Positions 57,689-64,000 of a DNA stretch of 64,000 nt are shown piece after piece (positions within the stretch are counted from its first letter, which is position 1; each line of letters opens with the position of its first letter). The notes under the pieces are model-generated. The model was not told the DNA's origin, did not search any database, and saw only the letters and a program-made list of their open reading frames with translations. Origin of the DNA: Catenuloplanes niger (lineage in GTDB: Bacteria; Actinomycetota; Actinomycetes; Mycobacteriales; Micromonosporaceae); the NCBI RefSeq assembly GCF_031458255.1, contig NZ_JAVDYC010000001.1, forward strand, positions 4,349,001-4,413,000, read 5' to 3'. Both the position numbers and the translations under genes were made by a program.

Positions 57689-57762
57689 GCGGGTGTAGTT
57701 CAATGGCAGAACATCAGCTTCCCAAGCTGACAGTGCGGGTTCGATTCCCGTCACCCGCTCCA
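57689..57762 (+). tRNA. tRNA-Gly (anticodon CCC), AICE integration site
   Basis: Acceptor GCGGGTG/CACCCGC, discriminator T, D-arm GTTC...GAAC, anticodon stem TCAGC/GCTGA with loop TTCCCAA (CCC, reads GGG), T-arm closed around TTCGATT. CCA is encoded (57760-57762). The integrase gene lies 88 bp downstream on the opposite strand, so the 3' half is the attachment site. Confidence 0.95.
57715..57762 (+). other. predicted attL core (3' half of tRNA-Gly)
   Basis: AICEs recombine at the 3' half of a tRNA and rebuild it on insertion. Here the integrase, Xis and transfer genes begin directly after the tRNA. The core should run from about the anticodon stem to CCA. The second copy (attR) is beyond the right edge of the window, so the exact limits cannot be read. 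Confidence 0.6.
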
Positions 57763-57850: not shown

Positions 57851-59026
57851 TTAGACCGGCTCAGCCTCGTCCTGAGCGGCCCTCGGCGCCCGCTTGCTCG
57901 GCTTCCGCCGAGCCGCCTGCACCGCCTTGTTGATCGCTTCGGCGATCGCCCGATCGGCCTCCGAGTTGGCGTGCTGGTAGATCAGCGCCGCGCGCGGGCT
58001 GTCGTGGCCCATCCGGGTCATCAGGTCCCGCAGGCTCGCACCCGGCGCGCGGGACGCGAGCGTGTTCCCGGTGTGCCGGAGGTCGTGGAAGTGCAGCTTC
58101 GGCGCCCCGATCGCCGCGACGGCATCCGACCACTTCACGAGCTGGTTGAAGTTGCCGCGCCAGATCGTCCGGCCTTCCGCGCCGGTGAACACGAACGCGT
58201 CCGGGTCATCACCTGCAAACTCGGTGAGATGCGCCTTGACCTGTGGCAGGACGACGGCCGGCAGGGTCACCGTGCGAAGTCCGGCCCGCGACTTCGGCGG
58301 GCCGAGGACCAGGCCCGTGCCGCGCTGCTCCACGTACGCCTGACGGACGCGCACCGTACCCGCCTCAAGGTCGATGTCTCGCCGCTGCAACGCGATCACC
58401 TCACCCCACCGGAGACACCCGAAAGTGGTGACCAGGATCAGCGCGCGGTAGCGCTCCGGCACCTTTTCCGCCAGGTCGAAGACCTGGGCGACGGTGAGCA
58501 CCGGCCGTTCCGCTGGCCGCTCCTGGTCTGCTCCCTTGATCCGGCACGGGTTCACCCGGATCAACTCGTCCTCCTTGACCGCCGTCATCAGGACCGCGCG
58601 CAGCAGCCGGTACGCCTTCGCGGCCATGGTGGCGGAGACGCCGTTGTCGAGCAGCTTCGTACGCCACTCCCGAACCATCGGCGTACTCAGCCGGTTCAGC
58701 GGCACCTTCCCGAGGTACGGCGTGACGTGCTTGCCGAGCAGCCACGTGTAGAGGTGCACCGTCCGGGGCCGCAGGTTCGGCCGTTCGGCGATCCAGCGCT
58801 CGGCGTAGTCCTGCAACCAGATCTTGCCTCGGTTCGGGTCGATCCACTCACTGGTGATCAGCTTCGACTCGACGATAGACAGGTACTGCTCGGCTTCCTG
58901 TTTCCGTTCGAACGTCTGCTCTCCCGGCCGCACCACACCGTCCGGGCCGGGGTAGCGCACCTGGTAGCGGCCGGACGGCAGCTTCCGGATCGCGCCGAAC
59001 CGGCGGTGGCCTCCCTTGCCCGGCAT
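57851..59026 (-). CDS. int: AICE tyrosine recombinase (integrase)
   Basis: 391 aa from the ATG that overlaps the xis stop (TGATG). An arm-binding N-terminal domain (FGAIRKLPSGRYQVRYPGPDG), a core-binding SAM-like domain (DYAERWIAERPNLRPRTVHLY) and the catalytic domain with R206, K245, H314-x-x-R317, H341 and nucleophile Y350 are all intact. It catalyses site-specific insertion into the tRNA-Gly and, with Xis, excision. The C-terminus is Lys/Arg/Ala-rich. Confidence 0.95.
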   Translation of the reverse strand: MPGKGGHRRFGAIRKLPSGRYQVRYPGPDGVVRPGEQTFERKQEAEQYLSIVESKLITSEWIDPNRGKIWLQDYAERWIAERPNLRPRTVHLYTWLLGKHVTPYLGKVPLNRLSTPMVREWRTKLLDNGVSATMAAKAYRLLRAVLMTAVKEDELIRVNPCRIKGADQERPAERPVLTVAQVFDLAEKVPERYRALILVTTFGCLRWGEVIALQRRDIDLEAGTVRVRQAYVEQRGTGLVLGPPKSRAGLRTVTLPAVVLPQVKAHLTEFAGDDPDAFVFTGAEGRTIWRGNFNQLVKWSDAVAAIGAPKLHFHDLRHTGNTLASRAPGASLRDLMTRMGHDSPRAALIYQHANSEADRAIAEAINKAVQAARRKPSKRAPRAAQDEAEPV

Positions 59027-59283
59027 CAGGCCACACCCCGCAGCCCGCGCCACACGCTCTCCGGCGTCATCGGCTCAACCCTGCCGGCCGTGACGAACTC
59101 GGCCAGGTCGGTGGGATCGAAGCGCACCGAGCGACCGAGCCGGTAGAACGGGATGCGACGTTCGGCGACCAGCCGACGGACGTACCGCACGCTCATCTTG
59201 ATCCGGAGCGCCGCTTCCTCGATCGTGAGCAGTTCCTCGGGCAGCACCGGGGCAACGGTGCGGATGTCGGTGACCTTGGGCAT
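59026..59283 (-). CDS. xis: excisionase / AlpA-like helix-turn-helix protein
   Basis: 85 aa. The MerR/AlpA-type winged helix reads LLTIEEAALRIKMSVRYVRRLVAERRIPFYRLGRSVRFDPTDLAEFV, the usual DNA-binding form of AICE Xis. It bends attachment-site DNA to promote excision. The start is ATG 59283; longer frames extend into the repeat region and are not supported. Its TGA shares a base with the int ATG. Confidence 0.9.
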   Translation of the reverse strand: MPKVTDIRTVAPVLPEELLTIEEAALRIKMSVRYVRRLVAERRIPFYRLGRSVRFDPTDLAEFVTAGRVEPMTPESVWRGLRGVA

Positions 59284-59474: not shown

Positions 59475-61427
59475 TCATGCGGTCCGCCGGGCGTCGCGGA
59501 TCGGATGGACGGTGGCGGCCGGCCGGTGCACGTCCGGGTTCACGAGGAAGGTTGGCGACGGCGGCCGGCCGCCGGTCCGGGGTCGTGCCGGCGGGTCGAT
59601 CTGGCGGAGGTAGCCGTGCGCGTCGAGCACCGCGAGCGCGGGTTCCAGGTCGGCAACGGCCCGGATCGTGGCGGACTTGGTGGCGCGGTACAGGTCGCGT
59701 TTGGTGAATGTCGTCGATCCTGTGCGCTCGATCCACGCAAGCACGTGCCGGGCGTTGCGGGTGGCCTGGTCGGCGCCCATGTCGTCGAATGCGGCCAGCG
59801 CGTGAGCGGCGTAGTAGTCACCGAGCTGTGCAGCCCGGTCGATCGTCTCCGCCTCCACCGGCTTGCCCCATCCGTCGCGCAGGTGCTCGGCAAGGTGGAT
59901 CAGCCCGGCCATGCGGACGACGGCGCCGGTGTACTTGCTGCCCCAGTCCACGACGTGTCCCCACGCACCACCGGGCGCAAGCCGTGGCTCTACCGCGCGC
60001 TCGATGTCGAGCACCCTGGCGTTGGCATCCTCGGTGAGCGGCAGGACCGCCGGATCGGTCCAGCCCGCGAGCGTGAGGACCAGGGCGCCCAGGTTGTCCC
60101 TGTACGCCTCGGCAACGTCGGCCGGCACCGGGTCAGCACCGATCCGGCGGAAGCCGACCGTGTTCTCCGGCAGCGCGAACAGGATGCGTGCCAGCAGTCC
60201 GAGCCCGCGAAAGCCCGGCATGGAAGCGATGTCGCGCAGCACGTCCGGTTGCACGGCCAAGCCGAGCGTCAGCGCAGGCTTGGCGACGTGCTGACTCTCG
60301 CGGGACAGCCGGCCGACGCGCATCATGTCCCCGGCGTGCCCTTTGAGGAATACCTCCAGGTTCGGGGTGCCGGAGTAACGGCCAGCGATGGTGGCGAAGA
60401 TGCCACCTTCCGGCGAGAGCACCGCCAGCCGGCCGCCCTGGTCCGCGAGCAGCTGCGCGGCAGCCTCGCTGGTCACGTCATCGGCAACAAGCTGAGGCAG
60501 GCTCGGCACCGTGACGGCTTCGGCCTGCATCGCGGCGGCCGACGCCTCGGCCAGCAACGTATCCCGCGCGGACGCATCCGCGTTCGCCGCAGCGTGCGCC
60601 GCCTTGTCAGCGGCCTTCCCCGCCACCCGCGCCGCCAACTCGGCCTCGACGATCGCGGGTTTGGTCCGCTCCACCAGCGCCGATTCAGCCGCCAGCAACG
60701 GCCCGGTGATCGCCGCGAACACCGCCGACTTCCGCGACCCCGGCGGCAACACCACGACCGTGAACAGATTCGTCGGCTCCCGCCACGATCCCCGCACCTC
60801 CACCTCGGCCCGCCCGCCGGCGGCCGTCGACAGCGCCGCGAGCGCGATGCTCCCGGCCAGGTCGACCGGCGTCTGCGTGAACTCCGCGACTGCCCGCACC
60901 ATGTCCGCCACCCACCCCGGCAGCACGTGCGCGGGAAAGGCCGGCAGATGCCGCCCGGTGCCCAGCGGGATCGGTGGCGCCCACTCCGCACCGGTGCCGG
61001 TGTCGTCGAGCAGCGCGCGGCTGGTCGCCAGCAGATCGGCCGTGTCGGTGCCGGAGTCCGCGAGCTGGGTAAGCCGCAATCCCAGCTCGGAGACGTCCCG
61101 TCGCCGGGCGTGCCCTGCCACGATGTCCGCGTAGTAGCCGGCACTGGCGACGCTTGGCACCTCGGAGATCAGCGTGTGCAGGTACGGCGCCCCACCCACT
61201 CGCGCCAGATCCCCGGTCTCGGCCAGATGCGCCGCGAGCGTGATCGGATCGGCCGGTGTGCCGGCCGCGTCGAGCCGGCAGATCGCGTCCCACAGCGCTC
61301 CGTGGTTCGGACGGTAGAAGTCGCCGGGGTTGAGCTTGGCCGCAAGCTCGGTGACCAGCGACGGACTGAGCAGCGCGGCGCCGATGACGGCACGTTCCGC
61401 GCCTTCATCGTGTGCGGGTCGATTCAT
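59475..61427 (-). CDS. AICE replication protein: DnaB N-terminal domain plus DUF3987
   Basis: 650 aa. Residues 1-110 match the DnaB helicase N-terminal domain (AERAVIGAALLSPSLVTELAAKLNPGDFYRPNHGALWDAI). Residues about 165-560 match DUF3987 (YfjI-like) with a P-loop-like LPPGSRKSAVFAA, where the usual G-K-S reads R-K-S, and LSPEGGIF as Walker B-like part. The C-terminus is a wHTH-like section. By position it is the element's replication protein, a type unlike the classic RepSA. ATG has AAGGAGG upstream. Confidence 0.8.
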   Translation of the reverse strand: MNRPAHDEGAERAVIGAALLSPSLVTELAAKLNPGDFYRPNHGALWDAICRLDAAGTPADPITLAAHLAETGDLARVGGAPYLHTLISEVPSVASAGYYADIVAGHARRRDVSELGLRLTQLADSGTDTADLLATSRALLDDTGTGAEWAPPIPLGTGRHLPAFPAHVLPGWVADMVRAVAEFTQTPVDLAGSIALAALSTAAGGRAEVEVRGSWREPTNLFTVVVLPPGSRKSAVFAAITGPLLAAESALVERTKPAIVEAELAARVAGKAADKAAHAAANADASARDTLLAEASAAAMQAEAVTVPSLPQLVADDVTSEAAAQLLADQGGRLAVLSPEGGIFATIAGRYSGTPNLEVFLKGHAGDMMRVGRLSRESQHVAKPALTLGLAVQPDVLRDIASMPGFRGLGLLARILFALPENTVGFRRIGADPVPADVAEAYRDNLGALVLTLAGWTDPAVLPLTEDANARVLDIERAVEPRLAPGGAWGHVVDWGSKYTGAVVRMAGLIHLAEHLRDGWGKPVEAETIDRAAQLGDYYAAHALAAFDDMGADQATRNARHVLAWIERTGSTTFTKRDLYRATKSATIRAVADLEPALAVLDAHGYLRQIDPPARPRTGGRPPSPTFLVNPDVHRPAATVHPIRDARRTA

Positions 61428-61459: not shown

Positions 61460-61741
61460 TCAGCGGTGGGGCGACGGTCGGGCAGCGACCGCGACACGGC
61501 CGAGCAGGACGCGCAGGCCGGAGAGCATGGCGAGCAACTGCCGCCGCGCCGCCACCTCACGGCGAGCGAGCGGCACCCAAAGCCGGACCTCGGCGTACTC
61601 GCGCCCGTTCTCCGTCCGCGTCCGCGTGACGACCGCGCGACCGTGCCGCGCCAGGTCGACGACGATCTCCGCGCTCCGGTGCTCGTTGAGCCCGCAGCGA
61701 TGGTCAGCGGCGCACCAGTCCGGGTGCGGAGTGCGGTTCAT
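61460..61741 (-). CDS. small conserved AICE protein
   Basis: 93 aa. An N-terminal C-x-x-x-H-x-C cluster (PDWCAADHRCGLNEHRSA) could bind zinc. The rest is two strands and a helix (REYAEVRLWVPLARREVAARRQLLAMLSGLRVLLGRV). Similar small genes lie between tra and rep in many AICEs; function unknown. Its ATG overlaps the stop of the upstream gene (ATGA). Confidence 0.7.
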   Translation of the reverse strand: MNRTPHPDWCAADHRCGLNEHRSAEIVVDLARHGRAVVTRTRTENGREYAEVRLWVPLARREVAARRQLLAMLSGLRVLLGRVAVAARPSPHR

Positions 61742-61989
61742 CGGGTGCCGTCCCGGTGCACGCGCCGGTACTCGTTCCACACGTGCCGCCCGACCCGGAT
61801 GCGCCGTCCGGTGCCGTCGCAGCGCCGGCACAGCCGGAACACGCGTCCGAACGGGCTCTTGATCCGCCCGGTTCCGTGACAGGTTGAGCACGCTTTCCAC
61901 GGCCAGATCGCGCAGCTAGCGGCGTAACAGATCGTGACGGGCGGTAGGACGAAGCAGAGGAAGCTAGCGATCAGGGAAGGGGTGTCCAC
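61738..61989 (-). CDS. zinc-ribbon membrane protein of the AICE transfer region
   Basis: 83 aa from GTG 61989, which has GGAGG at five-base spacing; ATG 62064 gives 25 more residues but no ribosome site. One membrane helix (LIASFLCFVLPPVTICYAASCAIW) is followed by two CxxC motifs in DnaJ-type spacing: CSTCHGTGRI and CRRCDGTGRR. Resembles spread-type (Spd) proteins that assist plasmid spreading in mycelium, but assignment is by position and layout. Confidence 0.65.
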   Translation of the reverse strand: MDTPSLIASFLCFVLPPVTICYAASCAIWPWKACSTCHGTGRIKSPFGRVFRLCRRCDGTGRRIRVGRHVWNEYRRVHRDGTR

Positions 61990-62031
61990 GAACGCCTCCA
62001 GGGCCGGTTTTCGGGCATGGGGGACCAGGGC

Positions 62032-62112
62032 CGCTAGCGTGCTAGCGTCCTGGCAGGGCTTCATTTCGTGTGCTAGCGGAGGTGCTAGCGCTAGCAGGCT
62101 CGGGCGCTAGCG
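62032..62112. repeat. cluster of GCTAGCG octamers (candidate clt/TRS)
   Basis: Six GCTAGC motifs start at 62033, 62041, 62072, 62084, 62090 and 62106, each within (T/C)GCTAGCG or its complement. Two more lie at 61915 and 61963 inside the zinc-ribbon gene. CTAG is normally rare in such GC-rich DNA. The cluster is in the 142-bp gap after the translocase gene stop. Confidence 0.85.
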
Positions 62113-62131
62113 CCAGCACCCTCCGGCGGTA

Positions 62132-64000
62132 CTAGGCCGCAGCCTTCGATCGGTTACGCTCGGCAACTTTCTCCGCGACATGCGCGCGGGTGATGCCGCG
62201 CCGGTTGACGGTCTTCCCGCCCACCCGCCGACCGATCTGGTCAACCTCGATCCCGTACGGCTTCAGCGCCGCCGTCAGCTGCTCCGGCGCCCACCCGTCG
62301 TAGACATCCGGCCGCAACTCCGCCAACCGCGCCACCACGGTCTCGTTCCACACCCGCAGCTCCGCCACCGGCACCACGGACAGGATGTCGTCGAGCAGGT
62401 GATGACCGGCCGCCCGCTCAACCTCCGGCGTCTCACCGAGCGCGTGCCCGGTCAGCCGCCCCGCCCGCTCCCGCAGCGCCCGCGCCTTCTCAGCGAGGAC
62501 GTTCGCGGCCGGCCCGTCGATGAACACGGTTGACACGATCCGCGCGTCCGCGCCTTCACCGGCGAAGTAGCCGATCCCCTTGTCCTCCCACGCGAACATC
62601 GTGGCCCGGACGCCGTTGCGGTATTTGCTGGTCCCGAGCACCATGTCGTTCTCCATCTGCCCCATGACCTTCAGGCAGAACCGCGTCGACGCGTTGGCGG
62701 AGATCGCGGTCGGCAGGCTCTTCGCGTCCGGCCGCTGGGTCGCCAGGATCAGCACGATCCCGGTAGCCGGCCCCCGCTTCACCAGGTCCGTGCAGATCTC
62801 CTCCAGCTCGGCCCCGTACTCCGGGTGCTCGAACCAGACCTGACACTCATCGACCCCGACCACGATCGGATGCAGGCCCAGCGAGCGCCGCGTGGCCAGC
62901 TCCGGCGTGACCTTGTTCTCCGGGCACAGATCCGGCGGCAGATCCCGGATCACCCGCGCCCGGCGGCGCAGCTCCGCCCGCAGCTCCCGCATCGCGGCCA
63001 CCGCGTAGAGGATGTCCTCGTCGTCCTCGCCAGCCCGGTACCGGTGCGCCACCTTCCCCAGCGCGGACAGGTCACCGGTGCCCTTCAGGTCGTACGCATG
63101 GATCTCCGCCCGAGGATCGAGCGCCGCGATCAGCAGCGCTTCCCGCAGCGCGAATGTCTTGCCCATCCGCGGAATCGACCCGATCACCATCGCGATGAAC
63201 ATCAGCGTCAGGTTCACCCAGCGTCCGCGCTGATCCGTCCCGTACGGCTGAGGCTTGAACAGGTCCACCGGCCCGCCCTTGAGCAGCGGCCACACGGGCT
63301 TGCGCGCCTTCGACATGTCCTGATCCCCGACCCAGAGCACCAGCCGGCCGGGATGCACCTCGGCGTTGCCCTCCGGCCACACGCACCCCAGCGGCCGGGT
63401 CAGCGCGCCGGCCAGCTTCTCCCGCCGCTCGATCACCTCGGTCGCGGTCACACCGGGCGGCAGATCGACATCGGCACGCCATCCGGGTCCGTCGCGGGTG
63501 ATCGGCGCCGGGAACCCGATCGCCTTGTCGCCCAGCTTCGACACCGCCTGGTTGATCCCCGCGAGCCCGAGCACGGACAGCGCGAGCGTGACCTGATTCG
63601 AGGTCAGCTCTTGCACATGCGTCGGAACGACAGCGCGGGACACCAGCGGCCGATCCGGTCGCGCCCCGCCGAGCCCGAACGCGGCGACCAGCCCCGCGAG
63701 CGTCGCCCAGTGCGCCCAGCTCGGCGCCAGCACCGCGAGCACGAACGTGCCGGCCGCACCGAGCACCGCGACCGACGCCGCGATCAGCGTCCGCAGACGC
63801 ACCCGGCCGTCACGCTGCCGGGACAGCCGGAGGTACTGCTCCGCGTCCTCCCGCCGGACCGCCGCAAGCCGGACGGGCAGGCCTTCCAGGTCGAGCACCC
63901 ACCGCGTACCGCCGGAAATGAATCGCCAGACCCCGCGCGGCGCCCGCAGCGCGAGCTTCCCGCCGTAGACCGGCATGCGGACCGCGTGATAGACGGAGAC
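62132..64000 (-). CDS. FtsK/SpoIIIE-type DNA translocase (TraB-like), 5' end outside window
   Basis: At least 615 aa. Two membrane helices (TLIAASVAVLGAAGTFVLAVL and WATLAGLVAAFGLG) precede the motor domain, with Walker A GSIPRMGKT, Walker B IVVGVDECQ and the ATQRPDAKSLPTAI motif. A C-terminal winged helix (TVNRRGITRAHVAEKVAERN) could read specific octamers. It pumps double-stranded DNA between hyphae during AICE transfer. The first ATG is at 63976, but the frame is open to the window edge and family members are longer, so I treat it as partial. Confidence 0.88.
   Translation of the reverse strand, partial: VSVYHAVRMPVYGGKLALRAPRGVWRFISGGTRWVLDLEGLPVRLAAVRREDAEQYLRLSRQRDGRVRLRTLIAASVAVLGAAGTFVLAVLAPSWAHWATLAGLVAAFGLGGARPDRPLVSRAVVPTHVQELTSNQVTLALSVLGLAGINQAVSKLGDKAIGFPAPITRDGPGWRADVDLPPGVTATEVIERREKLAGALTRPLGCVWPEGNAEVHPGRLVLWVGDQDMSKARKPVWPLLKGGPVDLFKPQPYGTDQRGRWVNLTLMFIAMVIGSIPRMGKTFALREALLIAALDPRAEIHAYDLKGTGDLSALGKVAHRYRAGEDDEDILYAVAAMRELRAELRRRARVIRDLPPDLCPENKVTPELATRRSLGLHPIVVGVDECQVWFEHPEYGAELEEICTDLVKRGPATGIVLILATQRPDAKSLPTAISANASTRFCLKVMGQMENDMVLGTSKYRNGVRATMFAWEDKGIGYFAGEGADARIVSTVFIDGPAANVLAEKARALRERAGRLTGHALGETPEVERAAGHHLLDDILSVVPVAELRVWNETVVARLAELRPDVYDGWAPEQLTAALKPYGIEVDQIGRRVGGKTVNRRGITRAHVAEKVAERNRSKAAA

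Follow-up and report, generated by a model that had tools for sequence, protein, structure and literature searches.

Clt loci and related DNA sites

The choice of DNA by a single-protein conjugation pump is known for a few Streptomyces plasmids. A comparable reader of DNA is FtsK gamma, the C-terminal winged helix of a hexameric DNA pump, which reads short KOPS sites that are scattered and directional over the chromosome. In pSVH1, recognition by TraB was assigned to a C-terminal winged helix and within it to helix alpha-3 (Vogelmann 2011, as cited in an excerpt of PMC3583192). According to the same excerpt, the clt of pWTY27 consists of 16 bp in traA and 159 bp behind it, contains repeats in both direct and inverted orientation, binds TraA and is needed for transfer (PMC3583192). 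In pIJ101, palindromic sps sites within a small plasmid gene are bound by a plasmid protein, as an excerpt of PMC4170104 describes. Here a cluster of GCTAGC motifs behind an FtsK/TraB-like translocase gene of Catenuloplanes niger was analyzed, which very probably is the clt of an AICE-type element, recognized by a C-terminal winged helix in the element's own Tra. In excerpts from the open-licence literature, no description of this array was found.

The host element

The cluster was located in the window, meaning the whole analyzed stretch of 64,000 nucleotides, within an element with the following features.

57719..57760, plus strand: attachment-site repeat, 42 bp, exact, within the 3' part of tRNA-Gly (57689-57762)
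57851..59053, minus strand: tyrosine integrase (PF00589, 7e-13)
59475..61427, minus strand: replication-type protein with DnaB N-domain and DUF3987 (PF13148, 4e-111; PF00772, 4e-26)
61738..61989, minus strand: small conserved ORF of 83 aa directly after the array, with a hydrophobic N-terminus (by eye) and a CXXC/CXGXG motif
62132..64000, minus strand: FtsK/TraB-like translocase gene tra, running past the window to about window-equivalent 64228
62135..62404, minus strand: predicted winged-helix part at the C-terminus of Tra

With the second copy of the attachment-site repeat at window-equivalent 71981-72022, the element measures 14,262 bp. As in an AICE, attachment repeats are found at a tRNA gene, here the 42-bp repeat, and the integrase is of one of the two expected types, tyrosine or serine. 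Tra scored 18.5 bits against PF01580 (FtsK_SpoIIIE; cut-off 24) and 20.9 against NF041214 (TraB equivalog; cut-off 800), while its kinship to FtsK was seen in FtsK chains at 3.5e-4 and in relatives annotated as FtsK. Because the protein scores below the curated cut-offs and shows kinship only, it is named FtsK/TraB-like, not TraB. The replication module, a DnaB N-domain with DUF3987, is none of RepSA, RepAM or Prim-Pol; representatives among the relatives carry DUF3631 and Prim-Pol, and further AICE replication modules were expected in an excerpt of PMC3218068. The product of the small ORF gave a weak DnaJ zinc-finger match below the cut-off.

The element also carries cargo at chromosome 4418292-4420615 (window-equivalent 69292-71615, L031:13292-15615), namely an AAA ATPase and a partner gene. 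The ATPase matches AAA_15/21, PtuA and AriA and the partner weakly matches AriB; the pair resembles an anti-phage system of the PARIS type or a relative of it.

The GCTAGC cluster and its unit

GCTAGC was counted nine times in the 64 kb of the window. Eight copies lie at 61915-62111, six of them within the 79 bp of 62033-62111, and only one is outside the cluster. CTAG was found 22 times vs about 170 expected from 70.9% G+C; eight of the 22 belong to the cluster, and one more overlaps the stop codon of tra. Dinucleotide shuffling of the whole window gave a mean of 8.46 GCTAGC and at least nine in 49 of 100 shuffles, a comparison that tests the total count, not the clustering, and is not corrected for CTAG avoidance. 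On the one-contig chromosome of 9,742,698 bp, GCTAGCG has 86 + 81 matches on the two strands, ten of which fall in the cluster. Seven places on the chromosome have two GCTAGC within 30 bp of each other, five in the cluster, one behind a second tra and one elsewhere. The clustering of GCTAGC is not due to chance. An earlier note on this DNA had reported eight copies in about 200 bp with six in 79 bp, had held CTAG to be rare and had placed the repeats immediately after the translocase gene, all of which was borne out by the window count: the cluster stands directly behind the tra stop codon (62132), between it and the GTG start of the small ORF (61989), and reaches into that ORF.

The unit proposed in the note, an octamer (T/C)GCTAGCG, did not stand. 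What repeats, at rigid spacing, is an inverted repeat, CCGCTAnnnnTAGCGG; it is present in two copies, mostly 22 bp apart, which are accompanied by one single site and by a third site that is split. In the window, GCTAGC at 62106 and a degenerate GCCAGC at 62112 form one inverted repeat, the copies at 62084 and 62090 form the second, that at 62072 is single, and those at 62033 and 62041 make up the third site.

62106..62117, minus strand: inverted repeat 1 (IR1), GCTGGCGCTAGC, one arm degenerate in the window
62084..62095, minus strand: inverted repeat 2 (IR2), GCTAGCGCTAGC
62072..62077, minus strand: single site, whose CTAG starts 19 bases after the start of the IR2 12-mer
62033..62046, minus strand: third site, GCTAGCACGCTAGC
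61963..61968, no strand assigned: GCTAGC inside the small ORF, with CTAG near the same offset in many relatives
61915..61920, no strand assigned: GCTAGC inside the small ORF, otherwise seen only in the near-identical L041 and L156

The sequence GCTANNNNTAGC occurs at eight sites on the whole chromosome, two behind the second tra, one in the window array and five as scattered singles. The second tra is 58% identical to the first over the whole protein and has its GCTAGC pair behind it at chromosome 4046908; its array has diverged (GCTAGG, TCTAGC, GCTAGA), and the spacing is the same within one base. In the element around it (chromosome 4043479-4049211; L040:7479-13211), no large ORF of replication type was found between the array and the integrase. 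The integrase itself is spread over separate frames, and the element is apparently decaying. A partial third tra at chromosome 7128927-7129904 shows 61% identity over query residues 113-437.

The array in relatives

A first set of 82 loci was assembled from 80 relatives (the best 80 of 125 tra loci from a contig scan, including a near-identical tra locus, L041, of Catenuloplanes japonicus), the window and the second tra. In 80 of the 82, one or more exact inverted repeats lie within -25 to +130 of the tra stop, and in the remaining two the array is found further on, at about 870 bp in L073 and about 700 bp in L113. CTAG cores follow the stop at about +13, +19, +35, +41, +53, +84 and +91 in many loci and are shifted by a few bases in others. 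Among 196 non-redundant loci, 145 contain a pair of exact inverted repeats at a distance of 21-23 bp (exactly 22 in 130 of these), a further 37 have one and 14 have none with this detector; of 811 control stretches from the 82 first-set loci, one has two repeats and 24 have any. The single site is at the exact offset in 172 of 179 loci. Plasmid pPaSha2 has a similar array (L153:6205-6290), which follows the small ORF and is on the opposite strand.

The constant neighbors of the array are Tra and the small ORF, the latter with family members in 80 of the 82 first-set loci. The gene between array and integrase varies, with DUF3987, DUF3631 (RepAM type), Prim-Pol, D5-type and AAA_25 among the representatives, and no large ORF separates the integrase from the array in L086, L100 and L117. 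Two loci whose Tra is without the C-terminus, L262 (182 bases after the stop) and L285 (876 bases), show no array there, which is weak evidence, as the genes may be decayed.

Arrays of other spelling were also seen behind tra by eye. They stand at the same place after more distant or divergent Tra genes: GAAACCGGTTTC is found in L273 and L275, GATACCGGTATC in L277, CTGACC/GGTCAG in L155 and L281, GCTTGCGCAAGC in L252, L270 and, slightly varied, L269, and GATAGACCTATC twice, 22 bp apart, in L230. Such arrays behind other Tra proteins suggest a general rule for translocases of this type.

Covariation of site spelling with Tra residues

In each half-site, TAG is followed by C, A or G, and this flank letter, by which the loci can be classed, is usually shared by both arms of both repeats. 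The 3' letter of the single site matches the class in 137 of 140 C loci, 22 of 23 A loci and all nine G loci, and the right-hand letter of the third site in 137 of 141, 20 of 21 and three of nine, respectively. Two residues of Tra were found to follow the spelling.

62198-62200: codon of R639 (660-aa numbering; R129 of the last 150 aa), in the motif NRRGI, the flank-letter residue
62207-62209: codon of V636 (V126 of the last 150 aa), three residues before R639, the center-dinucleotide residue

When all columns of Tra were compared with the flank letter in the 166 labelled loci among 176 non-redundant ones, the column of R639 carried 0.797 of 0.833 bits and the next column 0.385. In this column the C class has R 110, K 22, Y 3 and a gap in one, the A class I 15, M 2, F 2 and one each of T, K and S, and the G class G 5, Q 2 and V 1. 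In the first set the separation is full (0.762 of 0.762 bits), with R 58, K 6 and one gap for C, I 11, M 2 and T 1 for A, and G 1 for G; the best column of the small ORF reaches 0.631 of 0.774 bits there, and that of the integrase 0.376 of 0.793.

On a tree of Tra minus its C-terminus, the letter changes 14 times vs a shuffled mean of 28.9. According to a reading of the branch list, 11 of the 14 changes share their branch with a change of residue class, and three do not (L264, the L204/L205 pair and L233). When labels were simulated on the Tra tree in 300 runs, the normalized maximum was 0.699 vs 0.957 observed. The rule was fixed on the first set and tried on 132 further loci, 118 of them non-redundant and partly hand-picked from search lists. 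Of these 118, 15 had no label and 12 a residue outside the rule, leaving 91 that were predictable, and 90 were predicted correctly; the nearest neighbor by Tra motor gave 75 of 103 held-out letters correctly. The sole miss was L233, with NLKG and A-type sites.

Exceptions were also seen. Tyrosine goes with C-type sites in L211, L213 and L255. Glutamine is found with G-type sites in L170 and L189 and with A-type sites in L274. Tra proteins with NRRG or NRKG are found with the other array spellings of L252, L269, L270 and L230 named above, with a diverged array in L250 and with no readable array in L244, and the residue therefore does not set the whole site. The chemistry would fit, with Arg or Lys opposite G and hydrophobic residues opposite the methyl group of T.

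The middle dinucleotide of the inverted repeats is AC/GT in 118 loci and CG in 34, and this center class is followed by the column of V636 with 0.741 of 0.767 bits: A is found in 100 of the 118 AC/GT loci, and V or I in 32 of the 34 CG loci. A tryptophan insertion in the wing of Tra also tracks the center class, which changed ten times on the Tra tree. In an AlphaFold model, R639 and V636 are both located in the second strand of the wing, and the structural match of the Tra C-terminus to winged helices is weak.

A probable clt read by Tra and the alternatives

The array geometry, the association with tra and the two correlations between residue and site position were computed here, and from them a physical binding of Tra to the array can be inferred; loading of the motor and need for the site in transfer are suggested by analogy with pSVH1 and pWTY27. 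The candidate clt put forward by the earlier note is supported at the level of sequence, where two of the refuting conditions named in the note did not hold: the motif is not equally frequent over the rest of the chromosome, and it is kept in relatives with related translocases, spelled in accordance with a residue of the Tra C-terminus. A mechanism is proposed in which the C-terminal winged helix of Tra would bind the inverted repeats, the single site and the split site behind its own gene, the motor would assemble on the excised circle, and the excised double-stranded DNA would be pumped into the recipient. For a widespread AICE-type group, this provides a recognizable clt candidate and a specificity code testable by single substitutions, which would tell which elements can cross-mobilize each other or the chromosome.

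The symmetry of the array could have another meaning, in which IR1 and IR2 constitute one large dyad. It would act in the tra transcript as an RNA structure or, at the DNA level, as a cruciform or a single-strand hairpin. Such a role is quite improbable, although complementarity is common: the four middle bases of IR1 are the reverse complement of those of IR2 in 109 of 145 loci and the same in 17 (both in 13), the centers of loci with AC or GT in both repeats are opposed in 95 (GT,AC in 68 and AC,GT in 27) and alike in five (GT,GT in four and AC,AC in one), the outer flanks pair at 0.83 and 0.76 vs 0.53 and 0.43 when shuffled, and the window array can fold as a long hairpin with z of -2.3 as RNA and -3.2 as DNA. 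The inner flanks, however, pair little above chance, and CG-centered arrays often have non-complementary middles (GCGC/ACGT). An element of the tra mRNA is further disfavored by the array of pPaSha2, which follows the small ORF on the other strand, and by those of L073 and L113, displaced from tra. Since the single and third sites, outside the hairpin, change letter with it, the array is read first as the seat of a symmetric DNA complex and second as a cruciform or RNA structure.

Its position upstream of the small ORF and the rep genes would also suit an operator, by which Tra, the zinc-motif product of the small ORF or some other protein of the element would regulate the downstream operon, and the small ORF is as constant a neighbor as tra, with one column that follows the letter to the extent given above. 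Such an operator is highly unlikely; seven half-sites over about 85 bp at near-fixed spacing are judged to be more than a usual operator has, and the full match of residue to letter in the first set is in Tra. A replication origin, with the sites as iterons bound by the downstream DUF3987/DnaB-type replication protein, has very little probability: although iterons beside rep genes are known from pWTY27 (in an excerpt of PMC3583192) and a rep-type gene follows the array in the window, different replication modules stand behind the same array, with none that is large in L086, L100 and L117, and the sites share a spelling class that tracks the Tra residue while the modules change and the array stays, which makes an oriV unlikely.

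For a clt read by Tra, a bolder extension can be offered tentatively, and it is rather doubtful: the array may be a near-fixed, dyad-symmetric docking platform throughout the family, read by the wing through a code of nearly one residue, with a second residue for the center. In such a code, R or K would stand for C, mostly hydrophobic residues for A, and G or Q for G, and at the opposed IR1 and IR2 two motor assemblies would sit face to face or back to back, or a cruciform would be extruded. If true, the Tra sequence would allow a prediction of transfer specificity for many elements.

Comparison with known systems

Like a clt or TRS, the array lies next to a gene for an FtsK/SpoIIIE-like transfer translocase and contains several copies of one short motif. 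Covariation and held-out prediction give a strong agreement, at the sequence level, between the motif and the predicted C-terminal winged helix of the cognate Tra. The likeness to pSVH1 to which attention had been drawn was confirmed by a control, as pSVH1 (NC_007431, L151) has GACCCGGA in the same place, at +16, +38, +70 and +91 after the traB stop, with its complement at +107. In both, short repeats lie directly behind the gene of an FtsK-like translocase, and the first two pSVH1 copies at +16 and +38, 22 bp apart, compare with IR1 and IR2 at +15 and +37 in the window. The spelling differs from the known TRS, as had been claimed: the 8-bp GACCCGGA repeats of the pSVH1 type are absent from the window array. 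In pSVH1 the 8-mer is asymmetric, with four direct copies and one inverted, whereas here inverted repeats of another sequence stand in a fixed order. Recognition in pSVH1 is ascribed to helix alpha-3, whereas the discriminating residues here are in the predicted wing, and the two Tra proteins are 27.7% identical over the motor.

The array also differs from the clt of pWTY27, where the repeat is TGACACC and a single plasmid was studied, as far as an excerpt of PMC3583192 goes. The sps of pIJ101 is a 12-bp site inside spdA2, bound by SpdA2, and in an excerpt of PMC4170104 it affects stability, not transfer. With FtsK gamma, the proposed reading shares a C-terminal winged helix that would read short sites; KOPS are scattered and serve one-way loading, whereas the sites of the window form a local dyad-symmetric array.
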